From: a virus
IMG/VR virus record: IMGVR_UViG_3300042923_000451
Location: 1-35,171 of that record
Length of the DNA: 35,171 nt
Reading direction: 5' to 3' (one strand)
The position numbers were made by a program, and so were the translations under genes. The stretch's first letter is position 1. Each line of letters opens with the position of its first letter. Positions 2,433 to 8,592 of this stretch are shown here, piece by piece. Below the pieces are notes generated by a model. The model was not told where the DNA came from. It saw only the letters and a list, made by a program, of their open reading frames with translations, and made no database searches.

Positions 2433-4826
2433 TTAACCTATAGCTATCACTTGAAAAGTCATAGTTGAATATGCCCCCCAATACCGTACTGATGCATCTG
2501 TCCACAAAAAATAGTCCGGATCATGCCACAAATTGCCCCCGATAATCTTTAAACGTATACCATTAGGCAAAGCTTCTACGCTTTGTAACTCACATTTTTT
2601 CATTTGTACGGTATAATCTGTGGTATTACTAGATCCGGCGGCTTCATTAATAGTCAGTTGTACTTGCACATTTGTTGCTTTACCAATCCATTCTCCACCT
2701 ATTAAATCAATGTTTACAATTTGTGTACACATTTGCGTTGCTGTGCCATCGGAAGGTGGCCCAGTTGTAAACATACTCTGAGAACCTGATGGAAAAGAAC
2801 CGCTTGTAAAGGCTAACGCATCACGAAAACGAGACTTGGTGCCTTGATAACTCCGATACAATCCAATACCATCAACAGAAACAAAATGATCTGTAACATT
2901 CTTGTCCATATAAGCCTTGAAGCTTTCTCCATCAATGACTGTCTTTGCTCCGTTCGAATGCTCCACGGAAATCACAGCATCTTTGATGAATAGGTTTCCG
3001 TTTGTATCAAAGTACATGCGGTCTTGCCAAGTGCTTCCATCAGTGGAACGTTGAATTTTAATGCCTTCCGTTGCATTCATGATGGTCTTCACTTTGTTGT
3101 CTGTTCGTATGGCTTCGAATCCAACTGCGGAATTGATTTTCACACCATTGTATAGCGTTCCTTGCTGTACGGAATTATTTGCCGTTGTCTGTGCTGCGTT
3201 TGCAGTGCTTTGGGCTGCGCTTGCTGTACTGGAAGCACTATTGGCCGTAGCTTCAACAGTGTCAAGTTCTGACTGAGTTGCCTTCGTACTTGGGTCATAT
3301 CCAGGAGCATAGGTGCTATCCGGGCCAATGGTGATTCCCGCAAAGTCGATTGCTGTTGACCAACTAGAACCCCCATTTGTGGTGAACCCTATGCCGTAGT
3401 TGGTCCCGTCATACTTTCCAATCCGGATCTGCTTTTGTATGTCTAAGGGGTCAATGATGTAAATGCTTGTATCGTCCCAATAAAAATTCGTGTCACCCAG
3501 GATCTTCACCAAAGAAGCTTGAAGCGTACCGGCACGAATTTCATCAGCATTTACGGTCTTACCTGTCAGAGCTGTGCGCCATTGCCATGACCCGTCTGGG
3601 TTCTTTGCGTTAGCTATCAGAATCCAACCAGGACCAATGTACAACGCTCCAAAGTCCGGGCTTGCAGCATCGTTATTTTCTAGAAGGAAGCCTTGACCTT
3701 CGATCTCAACAGCATTCGTAAAGACTCCACCCATACGGATTTGATTGACGATTGCATTAATGGCACCATCCAACCAATAGGTGTTCAGCTTATCTTTTGT
3801 GGTGAACGTCTGCACCTTGTTTGCTGCATCCTGAAGTTTGTTTATAGTGTCTTCAATGCTGTCAATGAAGTTTGCAAGTGTCACCCGTGAACGTTCGGGT
3901 TCCAAAGGAAATTCTTCATATTCCACAACGCGGGCTTTCAGATCAAGGTTCAAGTCTTCATCGAACACCGTCACCGTGTCACCCACAAAAAAAGCTTCGG
4001 AATCGTCATAACCAACAGCTTTCTTCAATTCAACAACCGTAACTTCATAGGATACTTTTGGAGTGTCAACCGATTCTAAATAACGTTCCCCAGCTGCTTG
4101 AAGACCCGCTTCAGTTGTAATTTCGTTGAACTCAACTTTGTCTTCTTTCGGGACGGGATACAAGCCAATATTAGGGCTGTCAATAGCGGGAATGGTCAGA
4201 TCATCCTTGCCGTAACAATACAGCCGTGTAACCACTCCCTTGCTGTCCACCGTGCGTTTTATGCCCGTGATGTTCTTTCTGTAACGGAAGTGAACTCCGT
4301 TGTCATTGCCAACCTGGGGCTTCAGATTGACTGTGAAATTGTCTCGTTCAAGTTCACCATCAGAAAGGGCAATCAGATGGTTCAGCCCCCATGTTGCTGA
4401 CTTTCGGGAAACTGTGAAATCATGTGTTCCACTCATAGAAGATGCACCTCCCGTGAACCTTGTCCCACTCAGAAGCAGGGGAAGAATCACGTTTGGACTT
4501 GCTGCGGTTAACTCGATGCTGTCAATGTGCTTCCCAAGTAGCTCAGAAGATATGTGTTCACCTTCTACATAGGCAAGCAGCTCATTCTCTCCTGTCCGTT
4601 CTTCTTCTACTATGCGAATGATGAACAATTGACCACTGGCTTTCACAATGTTTTCTTCTTGAATTTCGCTGAACTTTTCGTCATCCAATGGCATTCTGAA
4701 GCTACACACATAGTCACCGTTCAGCCTTTGGAAAATGCGATAGTCATAAACCTTATCCAGAACAGCAAGACCCAGATTGGAAAAGTTCGTTTCAAATTTG
4801 TCATATACGATTGGGTAAAGGATAAT
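2433..4826 (-). CDS. Tal-like tail-associated structural protein (tail tip)
   Basis: About 797 residues. The N-terminal 250-300 residues match the phage minor structural / prophage endopeptidase-tail family, which forms the tip below Dit and carries the receptor-binding or lytic part. Visible hallmarks are the YDKFETNFSNLGLAVLD opening, 'LNGDYVCSFRMPLDDEKF' and 'ENIVKASGQLFIIRIVEE'. A coiled-coil-like Ala/Ser/Thr repeat (SASSTASAAQSTANAAQTTA, about residues 520-545) leads to a C-terminal beta-rich fibre domain. The obvious start, GTG at 4709, would cut off 39 in-frame conserved residues. No ATG, GTG or TTG exists between the upstream TGA (near 4876) and 4709, so AUU (4824-4826) or AUC (4821-4823), just after GGGTGGTGA, is the likely start. 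A terminator hairpin lies directly upstream. Confidence 0.82.
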   Translation of the reverse strand: MILYPIVYDKFETNFSNLGLAVLDKVYDYRIFQRLNGDYVCSFRMPLDDEKFSEIQEENIVKASGQLFIIRIVEEERTGENELLAYVEGEHISSELLGKHIDSIELTAASPNVILPLLLSGTRFTGGASSMSGTHDFTVSRKSATWGLNHLIALSDGELERDNFTVNLKPQVGNDNGVHFRYRKNITGIKRTVDSKGVVTRLYCYGKDDLTIPAIDSPNIGLYPVPKEDKVEFNEITTEAGLQAAGERYLESVDTPKVSYEVTVVELKKAVGYDDSEAFFVGDTVTVFDEDLNLDLKARVVEYEEFPLEPERSRVTLANFIDSIEDTINKLQDAANKVQTFTTKDKLNTYWLDGAINAIVNQIRMGGVFTNAVEIEGQGFLLENNDAASPDFGALYIGPGWILIANAKNPDGSWQWRTALTGKTVNADEIRAGTLQASLVKILGDTNFYWDDTSIYIIDPLDIQKQIRIGKYDGTNYGIGFTTNGGSSWSTAIDFAGITIGPDSTYAPGYDPSTKATQSELDTVEATANSASSTASAAQSTANAAQTTANNSVQQGTLYNGVKINSAVGFEAIRTDNKVKTIMNATEGIKIQRSTDGSTWQDRMYFDTNGNLFIKDAVISVEHSNGAKTVIDGESFKAYMDKNVTDHFVSVDGIGLYRSYQGTKSRFRDALAFTSGSFPSGSQSMFTTGPPSDGTATQMCTQIVNIDLIGGEWIGKATNVQVQLTINEAAGSSNTTDYTVQMKKCELQSVEALPNGIRLKIIGGNLWHDPDYFLWTDASVRYWGAYSTMTFQVIAIG

Positions 4827-4845
4827 TTCACCACCCTTCTGAAAG

Positions 4846-4889: not shown

Positions 4890-4991
4890 TTATTCATAGC
4901 CTTCTGCGCGAAGCTGTGTTTGGTAAGGTTCTGGCACTTCGTCAATGGTCATCATGCCTTTATCAAGCTTATAGCGGTAGTAGTTAAGCAT
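4890..4991 (-). CDS. XkdX family protein
   Basis: A 33-residue ORF with the hallmark size, position and pattern of the XkdX family: it opens MLNYYRYKLDKGMMTIDEVP and ends in a short 'YQTQLRAEGYE' tail. XkdX proteins lie at the end of the tail or baseplate genes in Bacillus PBSX-like phages and their relatives; their role is not established. The ATG overlaps the stop of the preceding gene (TAATG), so translation is coupled, and a terminator follows at once. Confidence 0.82.
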   Translation of the reverse strand: MLNYYRYKLDKGMMTIDEVPEPYQTQLRAEGYE

Positions 4992-5212
4992 TAAACAGCA
5001 CCCCCTTCCAAAGCCGCAATGCGGGCTTCAAGTTCATCTTGCTTCATCATAATCATGACAAGCACGTTCCCAATGTCATCATCGTTCTGAAGTGAAAGCA
5101 TAAGCCCGTTGCCTATGTCGTTGATGACTGGTGGTTCTTCAATATTGTCCAGTTCTTCTACGGGAACCCCGCGCTGAATCAGCCATTCACGCAAGTTTTC
5201 TAAGTTCTTCAT
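4991..5212 (-). CDS. Small tail-region protein preceding XkdX
   Basis: A 73-residue acidic protein (MKNLENLREWLIQRGVPVEE). The C-terminal helix (DIGNVLVMIMMKQDELEARI) looks like a short coiled coil. Proteins of this size are common directly in front of XkdX in Bacillales prophages, but I know no function. It starts only two bases after the stop of the fibre gene and overlaps XkdX by one base, so it belongs to the tail operon. Confidence 0.8.
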   Translation of the reverse strand: MKNLENLREWLIQRGVPVEELDNIEEPPVINDIGNGLMLSLQNDDDIGNVLVMIMMKQDELEARIAALEGGAV

Positions 5213-5214
5213 AG

Positions 5215-7767
5215 TTAACCTCCCAACGCTTTCATGCGTTTGTAAAGTTGAGCAATAGCATTAACGTTCGTGCTGATTCCAGTTTCTGCGTCAGCTAACC
5301 GGCGAACGATTTGATCCTGGATGCTCTTGGAAGATGTGTTGTAATCGCCCGATGCGTCCACAACATTTGATGTTAAGCTGTACTTGTCTAAGGCTACATA
5401 TGACACGGTGTATTCGGCAGTACTGTCGTAGTCGGAATTTGCTATAAAGGCAGAATAATTGCCGTAGCCGGTGGAAGTATTGCTGTATATTGTCCATTTT
5501 TTGTCTTGCACACCGTTTTTGTATATGGCAATAAACCTGTCTAGTCTGTTTTTGAGTTTTGTTCCGTCAGCAATACTTCCAGACGCACCGTCTTTTAAGT
5601 TGAGATACCATTGGAAGTTTGTGGTATGTTGTCTTAGTGTTGCTTTCTCCCGCACAATTACGCCTTCTCCTAATTCCACCTGATTCCCACCACTCTGCAA
5701 CGAAATGGAACCTTCCGTGCTGACTACTTCCGTTTGCGTTGTTGCCAGTTGGTAGGAAAGCTTGTACGGTGTGTAGCCAGTTGCAAGTGTTGTCGGTGTA
5801 ACGGTAACAGAACCCGTATTACTCGTTGCATTCCACAGCGTCCAGGTCTTCGTTCCTGTTCCATCGTAGGCCGTGCCAAAAGTGCCGTTGTTCATCTTCC
5901 ATCCGTATGCCCAAGCCTTTATCTCTGCTTCTGATGGTGTGTAGGATTCACCCCAACCTGAGTCCGTGTCGGGTATAGAAACGTACCATCTTTTCGGTGT
6001 TGTGTTTGTTCTATACCACCCTATATCTCCGCTTGTTACACTAGAAGAATTTTTTAAAATTCCCCCATTATATTTAACGATTGTAAAGTTAGTTGTTTCT
6101 GTACCTACAAATGCAGGGAAAACATCAGCGTTTATATACATATTTTTAAATCCAACATCATCACCGCTGAATAGCCACCCCAACGAACCATCCAACACAA
6201 CATCCGTCATCCACCGCTTAGTCTTGTACCATGCACCATCCCTGAAGGTCAGAGAGTCCTTGACCGTACCGTCGATGTTTGAGGCGAGTGTTACGGGTGC
6301 GAATAGATAGTCAGGGTTTGCGGGTTCGAATGTGGTTTTTGTGGAGCCTAGCTCTAGTAACGGCTCCTCCCAAGTTCCCGTTCCCGGTCCATTCGTGACA
6401 GCTAATAAAAGTAAATGAGAAACATTCGAAACAGTTGTAATAGTAAGTTGTGATTGTGTGGATAGTGCAGTAGTAGCTAATTGTGTGCCGTTAGAATCAT
6501 ACTGACGTAAAGCATACTGGAAACCTAAACTGTTATTTTTTGCACTCAATGTGTACTGGGTATTTGGTAAAGCGGGTATTAGTGGAGAATTTGAATTTTG
6601 ATTTGCGGCTGTAGCAACAATAGACAACTTGTAAGGTTCTGTCACAACAGCATTAGCATGTAACGTCCACTCGCTAAACGGTGGTAACAGATTCTTTCCG
6701 TACTTGGTCACGCTCGGATTTGTGAGATGCTTCACGCTGTCCACGTAGGGGAATTTATCGTCTATGCTTGGGCTTGTGGTAGCGGTGAGCGTTGACCCTA
6801 TGGCTGTGTAGTCGGTTGTGCTGACTTCGTATAGGCGTATGGAGTCGAAGTAGACAACAGCGGTCGGACTGTTACCTAGTGCCACTTGCGCTCTGAATCC
6901 TGTCCCGACCAAAATGTTGGAAGTCGGTATTTTAACGTAGACAAATTGCCAGCTTCCGACTGTCGATGTTGTCGCTGAACCTATATATCTGGTCGTCGTT
7001 GTGCCAACATCCAATAAACCAATGTAAACTAACCCTGCCGTGTATGACTCGATATACACCCAACCACCCAAAATATATTGTTTGGTTAAATCTAATGGGT
7101 AAGTATAATCTCTGTAAGCGTTAGTGTTAAGTCCTGAAGCTGACAGCTTGAACGAATTGCTCCCGTTTTTAACTTGCGCTGTCGAAAGTGTGACTGCCTG
7201 TACTATCGAAAAAGGTGTTAAACTCTCGCATCCTCCGTCACTTCCAAGCAGATTCACCAACGTGCGCCCGCTGATCGTCAGGTTCAACGGCGAAGCTTCG
7301 GAAGTCAGTACATAGTTCATCCCACGCTTAAGGATTGCAGTTGAAACGGCTGCGGCCAATAGTTTGGCGTGGATCTCCCGCACCATTGTTCCCAGGTTAG
7401 CCCGCGTTGTTCCATCTGCCCCAAGTCGTGCGTCTACAACTTCGGTGTTAGCTGTCCCTGAGTTTGCAACAATGTTGTTCACCCGTGTCAACAATTCCAA
7501 CAGTGCTGCTTTCACGTTTGTTGCTGTGAACCCTGCGTCAGCCATTGTGATAACTTCGGCAGCATGTGCAGCGATTGAAGCAAGATGTGCAGCAAGTTTG
7601 GTTTCAATATCCAGTTCGTTTCCACTGATTAGCGCATTTGCTGCGGCTATAGAAGCTTCTAGTGCCGTTTTATTGCTAAGTGCTGTTGCGACAACCTCGT
7701 TAAATTTCGTGTTAACCTTGGGGTACATCGTTTTCAATGTGTCTGATCCCACAAGCAAGTCAGTCAA
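5215..7767 (-). CDS. Large tail fibre / receptor-binding protein
   Basis: About 850 residues. I chose the TTG at 7767, seven bases after GGAGGT, over the GTG at 7776, which lies inside the ribosome-binding site. The N-terminus is helical and Ala-rich; 'EVVDARLGADGTTRANLGTM' (about residues 110-130) is a motif common at the base of siphophage fibres. Two beta-sandwich, carbohydrate-binding-like segments follow (about residues 190-315, with 'NGSNSFKLSASG' and 'YFDSIRLYEV', and about 360-490, with 'NLLPPFSEWTLHAN' and 'PLLELGSTKTTFEPA'). The remaining beta-rich domains are unassigned, and a short helical C-terminus ends 'KRMKALGG'. It probably attaches below Dit and contacts cell-wall sugars. 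Its place between Dit and Tal is unusual. Confidence 0.78.
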   Translation of the reverse strand: MTDLLVGSDTLKTMYPKVNTKFNEVVATALSNKTALEASIAAANALISGNELDIETKLAAHLASIAAHAAEVITMADAGFTATNVKAALLELLTRVNNIVANSGTANTEVVDARLGADGTTRANLGTMVREIHAKLLAAAVSTAILKRGMNYVLTSEASPLNLTISGRTLVNLLGSDGGCESLTPFSIVQAVTLSTAQVKNGSNSFKLSASGLNTNAYRDYTYPLDLTKQYILGGWVYIESYTAGLVYIGLLDVGTTTTRYIGSATTSTVGSWQFVYVKIPTSNILVGTGFRAQVALGNSPTAVVYFDSIRLYEVSTTDYTAIGSTLTATTSPSIDDKFPYVDSVKHLTNPSVTKYGKNLLPPFSEWTLHANAVVTEPYKLSIVATAANQNSNSPLIPALPNTQYTLSAKNNSLGFQYALRQYDSNGTQLATTALSTQSQLTITTVSNVSHLLLLAVTNGPGTGTWEEPLLELGSTKTTFEPANPDYLFAPVTLASNIDGTVKDSLTFRDGAWYKTKRWMTDVVLDGSLGWLFSGDDVGFKNMYINADVFPAFVGTETTNFTIVKYNGGILKNSSSVTSGDIGWYRTNTTPKRWYVSIPDTDSGWGESYTPSEAEIKAWAYGWKMNNGTFGTAYDGTGTKTWTLWNATSNTGSVTVTPTTLATGYTPYKLSYQLATTQTEVVSTEGSISLQSGGNQVELGEGVIVREKATLRQHTTNFQWYLNLKDGASGSIADGTKLKNRLDRFIAIYKNGVQDKKWTIYSNTSTGYGNYSAFIANSDYDSTAEYTVSYVALDKYSLTSNVVDASGDYNTSSKSIQDQIVRRLADAETGISTNVNAIAQLYKRMKALGG

Positions 7768-7779
7768 AAACGCCACCTC

Positions 7780-8592
7780 CTACAAATATTTAGGCTGAAA
7801 ATCAAAAAAGACCGTGCAATTTAAGCCGGTCCCGCCAATCGTTATTTCTGCAAGTCCAACCGGCAATTCGAAGAACTCCCCGGACACCTTGCCTAGTTTG
7901 TTTGTTGCTCCAATTTTTGCAGTCATCTTGGCAAAGTCAATTGTTAACGTTTGGCTTGCAATGGCTTCTGAATAGCTCAATGTTTTACCATCGTAAGCCA
8001 AAGAGAAGGTTGTGAAGCTCCCTGTAATGACCACAACAGGGGAAACATCTACCGTGCCAATATTCCGCACCTGAACTGTTCCTGGAGCGTTAACAGTGAA
8101 TGTGTAGGCATCCTCACTGTCCAAAGTAATATCTTCCAACGTGTCCAACATGATTTCACTGTCCAACGTGATTGGATCGTCAGCCGAATAGTTAAGGTAT
8201 TTGAACGGGTCAACCGCAACCATAGACAATGTGAAGAAGCCCATTGCCAACAATCGTTCAATGGACAGGGTTCCGGTTATACGAACCGTATAGTGTTTAT
8301 CAATGTCATGGTCAAAGGTCAGCGTTATGTTCCGTGGTCTGCCCTTGCTGTCCGTCAGGAACTTTGCAAAAGCACGGGCTTTTTGTTGCATCTCCCTTGC
8401 TGAAATCGCATAGGGGAAAGCAAGCGGAATATCAATCATTCGTTCAGCTAGTTCAGCCCCGAAATCAATCAATCCGTCCCGTCCTGGGATTTGCAAAACT
8501 CTTTCCCGTGTTTCAGGGATTATGGGGTCACTGGCACCCTTCTGTACGATCAGGCCGAATGAGGAAATACTTTGACCATCAAGGGTTATCAC
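7780..8592 (-). CDS. Distal tail protein Dit
   Basis: A 270-residue protein of the siphovirus Dit family (Sipho_tail), which forms the hexameric hub joining the tail tube to the tip. Typical features are the 'GQSISSFGLIVQKG' opening, the 'RVLQIPGRDGLIDFGAEL' strand region (residues about 30-48) and, after about residue 130, a galectin-like C-terminal domain. The start is GTG, overlapping the tape-measure stop (GTGA). It follows the tape measure, as is usual. Confidence 0.88.
   Translation of the reverse strand: MITLDGQSISSFGLIVQKGASDPIIPETRERVLQIPGRDGLIDFGAELAERMIDIPLAFPYAISAREMQQKARAFAKFLTDSKGRPRNITLTFDHDIDKHYTVRITGTLSIERLLAMGFFTLSMVAVDPFKYLNYSADDPITLDSEIMLDTLEDITLDSEDAYTFTVNAPGTVQVRNIGTVDVSPVVVITGSFTTFSLAYDGKTLSYSEAIASQTLTIDFAKMTAKIGATNKLGKVSGEFFELPVGLAEITIGGTGLNCTVFFDFQPKYL

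Follow-up and report, generated by a model that had tools for sequence, protein, structure and literature searches.

Near-cognate AUH start codons have been regarded as rare curiosities, known from infC and a few other genes. The infC gene starts with ATT in E. coli and with ATC in Streptomyces (PMC5472188), and in S. aureus it has AUA together with an extended Shine-Dalgarno (SD) sequence (PMC13009471). The ccpN gene of S. aureus and B. subtilis (AUA) and the cvfC1 gene of S. aureus (AUU) likewise combine such a start with a strong extended SD at a proper spacer, and AUU and AUA starts of this kind yield about 10% of the AUG output in S. aureus (PMC13009471). An AUU start also functions in clostridia (PMC11040787). 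Among phage tail-hub genes, SPP1 gp21 (tail spike/Tal) has an unusually weak start, UUG (PMC6316719). Two other phages are comparable to the one described here: the Clostridioides phage AR1075-1 (Leicestervirus), whose Tal gene lacks a standard start and is annotated too short, and the Psychrobacillus phage Spoks, which has the gene order TMP-Dit-fibre-small ORF-XkdX-like-Tal-holin-endolysin.

The locus under study lies in the window, i.e. the whole 35,171-nt stretch of viral DNA that was analysed (IMG/VR record IMGVR_UViG_3300042923_000451), which has the same gene order as Spoks and a Tal gene with a putative AUC start. It shares a near-cognate AUN start with infC, which differs in being autoregulated by its own product, IF3, whereas Tal is a structural component of the virion and is not known to act in initiation. 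Similarly, ccpN and cvfC1 are host genes with conserved starts, whereas Tal encodes a structural protein of the phage and its start codon differs from lineage to lineage. The UUG of SPP1 gp21 is a standard bacterial start, unlike the AUC proposed here. In AR1075-1 the Tal gene has ATT after GGAGGGAGGG instead of ATC and follows Dit directly, with no terminator, while the tail-associated endopeptidase of Spoks starts with GTG and has no clear terminator before it. The GTG start in Spoks (L003:8320-8330) overlaps a two-codon AUG-UGU-UAA frame behind the same SD.

By its family matches and predicted fold, the large minus-strand gene at 2433-4823 (796 aa from ATC 4823-4821 to the stop at 2433) is a Tal, or prophage endopeptidase tail hub, with a gp27/gp44/gp18-like fold. 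In Pfam it matches PF06605 with 133.6 bits (cut-off 31.3) and PF18994 with 43 bits (cut-off 23.6), and its PHROG 5555 match aligns from residue 5 of a translation begun at 4829. Residues 1-345 were modelled with AF2 at a pLDDT of 91.8, and Foldseek matched the model in the PDB to monocin FtbL (9j1k_L, E 3e-24), Listeria gp18 (3gs9, E 1e-21), the 80alpha hub (6v8i, E 4e-18) and also the NF5 lysin (9m7n). The frame is open from an in-frame TGA at 4862-4860 down to 2433, and between this TGA and the GTG at 4709-4707 it contains no ATG, GTG or TTG. Directly upstream of the conserved N-terminus stands the SD AAGGGTGGTGA (4838-4828), whose predicted duplex with the 16S tail amounts to -12.9 kcal/mol, followed by the codons ATT-ATC-CTT-TAC; ATT (4826-4824) comes after a spacer of 4 nt and ATC (4823-4821) after one of 7 nt. 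An earlier note, made from the sequence alone, had described both the family N-terminus in frame for 39 codons above GTG 4709 and an SD-like sequence before ATT ATC; both were found as described on the minus strand, and the SD proved to be strong. A weak hairpin covering the SD and ATC (-8 kcal/mol) did not exceed shuffled sequences in stability (z -1.1 and -0.06), so no claim is made that the SD is sequestered.

To place the start, we compared 16 IMG/VR loci whose Tal has the N-terminal motif YPI.Y. The start lies two codons before this motif in 14 of them (11 ATG, 2 TTG and 1 GTG) and one codon before it in the other two. The codon at this family position in the window (-6 from the YPI codon) is ATC 4823. 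In L157, which has the same SD and the same 7-nt spacer before its TTG, the junction reads GGGTGGTGAGAAT-TTG-AGT-TAT-CCA-ATC, compared to GGGTGGTGAAATT-ATC-CTT-TAC-CCA-ATC in the window. The earlier note had proposed a start at either AUU or AUC. The non-AUG start as such is well supported; between the two codons, the positions in the 14 relatives and the spacing make AUC 4823 the most likely start and AUU 4826 the lesser candidate.

We consider it probable that Tal is translated from the near-cognate AUC at 4823-4821, which would have arisen from an ATG by a single third-base change and been tolerated. In the proposed sequence of events, the 30S subunit would be held by the strong SD AAGGGUGGUGA, 7 bases upstream of the AUC, and fMet-tRNA would initiate there despite the mismatch in the third position, so that the protein would still begin with Met. 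Since AUU and AUA starts work in S. aureus and AUU works in clostridia, a similarly reduced near-cognate output can be expected for the window Tal, possibly several-fold below that from AUG, and initiation would presumably depend on IF3. Such a codon might be tolerated owing to the strength of the SD and the small number of Tal copies needed per virion. That AUC is the codon actually used is something we infer from the sequence comparisons, which include AUH codons at the equivalent position in two other Tal lineages.

Each of the other readings of this junction has some feature of the sequence in its favor. Initiation at AUU 4826, which would give Met-Ile-Leu-Tyr-Pro, appeals to a codon that is in frame, adjoins the SD and is the best-known near-cognate start, as in E. 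coli infC (PMC5472188). However, it stands only 4 nt from the GGTGG core of the SD, while the relatives with the same SD have spacers of 6-10 nt, mostly 7-8, and it lies one codon beyond the start of 14 of the 16 relatives, which makes this choice unlikely. The first standard start codon of the frame, GTG 4709-4707, has a modest SD-like GGTGA above it (duplex only about -7 kcal/mol), and starting there would leave the homologous codons above it untranslated. Those 39 codons, by alignment and model alike, encode conserved protein. With them the PF18994 match covers positions 3-81, and without them it shrinks to positions 32-81 and 24 bits; in the alignment of 40 Tals, three of the seven invariant residues (G19, L23 and N36) precede the GTG, which is residue 40. 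In the AF2 model the GTG codon falls inside the beta-strand 39-46 of the first domain of the hub, and a start there would remove the strands 6-8 and 27-34, both modelled with a pLDDT of at least 90. The frame above it moreover stays open and protein-like as far as the ATC, and we regard a start at GTG 4709 as highly improbable.

A sequence or assembly error would mean that the true phage has ATG at 4823, or that an extra base near GTGAAATT puts a GTG in frame. A single wrong consensus base in a metagenome contig would look the same as an AUC start, members of the Tal family do have ATG, TTG or GTG at this place, and one A added near GTGAAATT would give GTG AAA ATT ATC. Yet no obvious breaks interrupt the other main genes of the window, the GTG restored by the extra A would have AGAAGG at a distance of only 3 nt and would lose GGTGGTGA as its SD, and AUH-type starts occur naturally in independent Tal lineages and in other genes. 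The earlier note had named an ATG at this place in related phages as the sign of an error or mutation here. Such relatives exist at the level of the family, but the closest share only about 25-34% identity, and their ATG does not separate a natural mutation from a sequence error. Peptide patterns brought up no close relative of the phage in either IMG/VR or GTDB, IMG/VR contains no second copy of the exact start junction, and the terminase has distant relatives only. On balance, we think an error of this kind improbable, somewhat more so than the AUU start. Finally, Tal could be made by readthrough or frameshifting from upstream, either from the XkdX-like ORF, which occupies the same frame, or from the two GTG triplets within the SD, which are out of frame. 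The XkdX-like ORF is separated from Tal by TAA 4892, TGA 4862 and a terminator hairpin, the GTG triplets have no SD of their own, and the relatives of Tal begin independently at this point; the two stops and the missing SD rule this origin out for practical purposes.

The starts of other Tals were compared as well. An internal motif retrieved 89 Tals from IMG/VR. Four of them lacked a standard start in the 60 nt ahead of the motif, and the only ATG of a fifth lay inside its SD; all five belong to one clade of C. difficile phages. Considering 205 distinct Tal N-termini, 174 had ATG, 16 TTG and 8 GTG, and seven had none, of which L280 (ATG with a weak SD) and L213 were set aside for other reasons. 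The Tals of the C. difficile phages have only ATT, 7-8 nt after GGAGGGAGGG, in four haplotypes that include complete replicons (L008/L018/L067/L072/L116, L319, L100 and L019/L084), and the sole ATG, in L019/L084, belongs to the SD. They have no terminator upstream, and the Tal of a phage related to this AUU clade, L020, starts with ATG. In GenBank/PGAP the Tal of these Leicestervirus-type phages (L008:1483-3576, L018, L019 and L319) carries four different annotated starts: 1777, ATC 1618, the ATG inside the SD, and 1198. PHROG 8687 matches this protein from residue 99 on, and for that reason looks to have been built from shortened annotation.

The other lineage, for which a Clostridium-type host was deduced from composition and Tal similarity, comprises seven contigs (L320-L326) in which an ATA is invariant down to 57% protein identity, whereas the Ile codon after it is ATA in some and ATT in others. 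The SD is AGGTAGGTGA, AGGTGGTGA or AAAGAGGTGA, with an 8-nt spacer to the ATA, and the small gene before Tal has the same SD and the same 8-nt spacer followed by ATG. There is an in-frame GTG nine bases above the ATA; since it sits within the SD and no separate SD precedes it, the ATA is most likely, though not certainly, the start of these Tals. On L307 the genes are arranged as TMP, Dit, fibre-like, small gene, terminator, Tal, holin-like and lysin-like, with functions read from order and sequence. The putative AUN start is constant within each of the two lineages, C. difficile and Clostridium-type. The window Tal would fall in the same class, as its conserved N-terminus has no ATG, GTG or TTG and is preceded by a strong, correctly spaced SD.

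The surroundings of the window Tal raise the question of dosage. Although a Tal gene usually follows Dit directly, an order that does not define it, here the Dit gene (7780-8592, GTG start, family matches) is separated from Tal by three genes, all on the minus strand: a tail fibre-like gene of 853 aa (5215-7776, PHROG 13022), with a strong-SD start at TTG 7767, a 73-aa gene (4991-5212) that occupies the same place in Spoks, and the 33-aa XkdX-like ORF (4890-4991; weak PHROG 1382 match, E 0.005), whose frame is parted from that of Tal by TAA and TGA. The same intervening genes are present in Spoks and in the Clostridium-type lineage. Many late genes of the window phage have TTG or GTG starts behind strong SDs (TMP 10346, fibre 7767, Dit 8592 and 15505). 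The terminator that the earlier note placed just upstream of Tal is real: at 4878-4847 on the minus strand, GGGTTGGGCTGATGCCTGACCC is followed by TTTTCTTTTT, and the intrinsic-terminator-like hairpin (4878-4857, 9 bp, -16.5 kcal/mol, z -5.3) was matched in stability by no shuffle. In the record of Bacillus phage vB_BboS-125 a terminator is annotated directly after its XkdX-like gene. No promoter was found before Tal in the window, and with the terminator preceding them, Tal and the lysis genes would have to be expressed by readthrough, by antitermination or from a promoter that escaped our search.

The suggestion of the earlier note that the start and the terminator together would keep the low-copy Tal scarce is plausible. 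A further step would be to propose that both were selected as a two-step throttle, which would hold synthesis of the displaced Tal below that of the other tail proteins; this does not compete with the AUC explanation, to which it adds a purpose. In its favor, the order of fibre, small gene, terminator, SD, AUH Tal, holin and lysin is common to the window and the unrelated Clostridium-type lineage, and terminator-like hairpins precede two of the three AUH Tal lineages, as opposed to 15 of the 210 Tals with a standard start (p 0.017, in a comparison chosen after the fact). Likewise, gp21 is the only gene of known function in SPP1 with UUG (PMC6316719). The UUG of gp21 fits a low demand for the hub protein. 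Against the throttle, the AUU Tals of the C. difficile phages have no terminator, AUH starts are also seen in Dit and portal genes, and the arrangement is found in two lineages only. Nor is Tal enriched in weak starts over Dit: among Dit N-termini of the same loci ATG accounts for 148 of 203, compared to 174 of 205 for Tal. Selection for such a two-step brake may have taken place, but we hold it to be rather doubtful. Slightly more tentative still is the broader proposal that several unrelated phages of Gram-positive bacteria keep a displaced hub gene behind fibre and XkdX-like genes, under a partial terminator and a strong-SD AUH start, which would set its dosage relative to the other tail proteins and might make it responsive to the level of IF3 in the host.

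The AUH starts do not appear to be specific to Tal; their sporadic occurrence in phage genes looks real. The survey covered 1,206 homologous genes for which a start was predicted; 19 of these were flagged and then inspected, and the convincing cases were the three Tal lineages, the Dit of L321 and a portal-like gene of L259. Counted by lineage this corresponds to ~0.5% of about 1,200 genes, a rough figure, as it leaves aside another 44 genes that lack a good start. The Dit of the prophage L321 has ATC (2668-2760), and L320, a relative from the same IMG genome, has ATG at the same place (2673-2760). The portal-like gene on the minus strand of L259 has ATA after AAGGAGGTGAGCATAT, and the relative on the plus strand of L255 has ATG. 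An ATA start is probable for the Dit of L159. Several flagged candidates were dropped: the holin of L133, which has an upstream ATG with an SD; L187, L211 and L228, which are antisense; the Dit of L074 (ATT, with ATG in L119), where an in-frame GTG nine bases upstream could serve; and the Dit of L157, on a frameshifted contig, the frame seeming to shift about 25 codons in.

In all, putative near-cognate starts recur in about five separate cases among the structural genes of phages, where annotation overlooks them. Should these codons indeed be used, gene finders for phages will need to include them, and the genes that carry them would provide a simple natural system for start-codon fidelity and tail-hub dosage. 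In the L321 phage, AUH starts are present in both Dit (ATC) and Tal (ATA).
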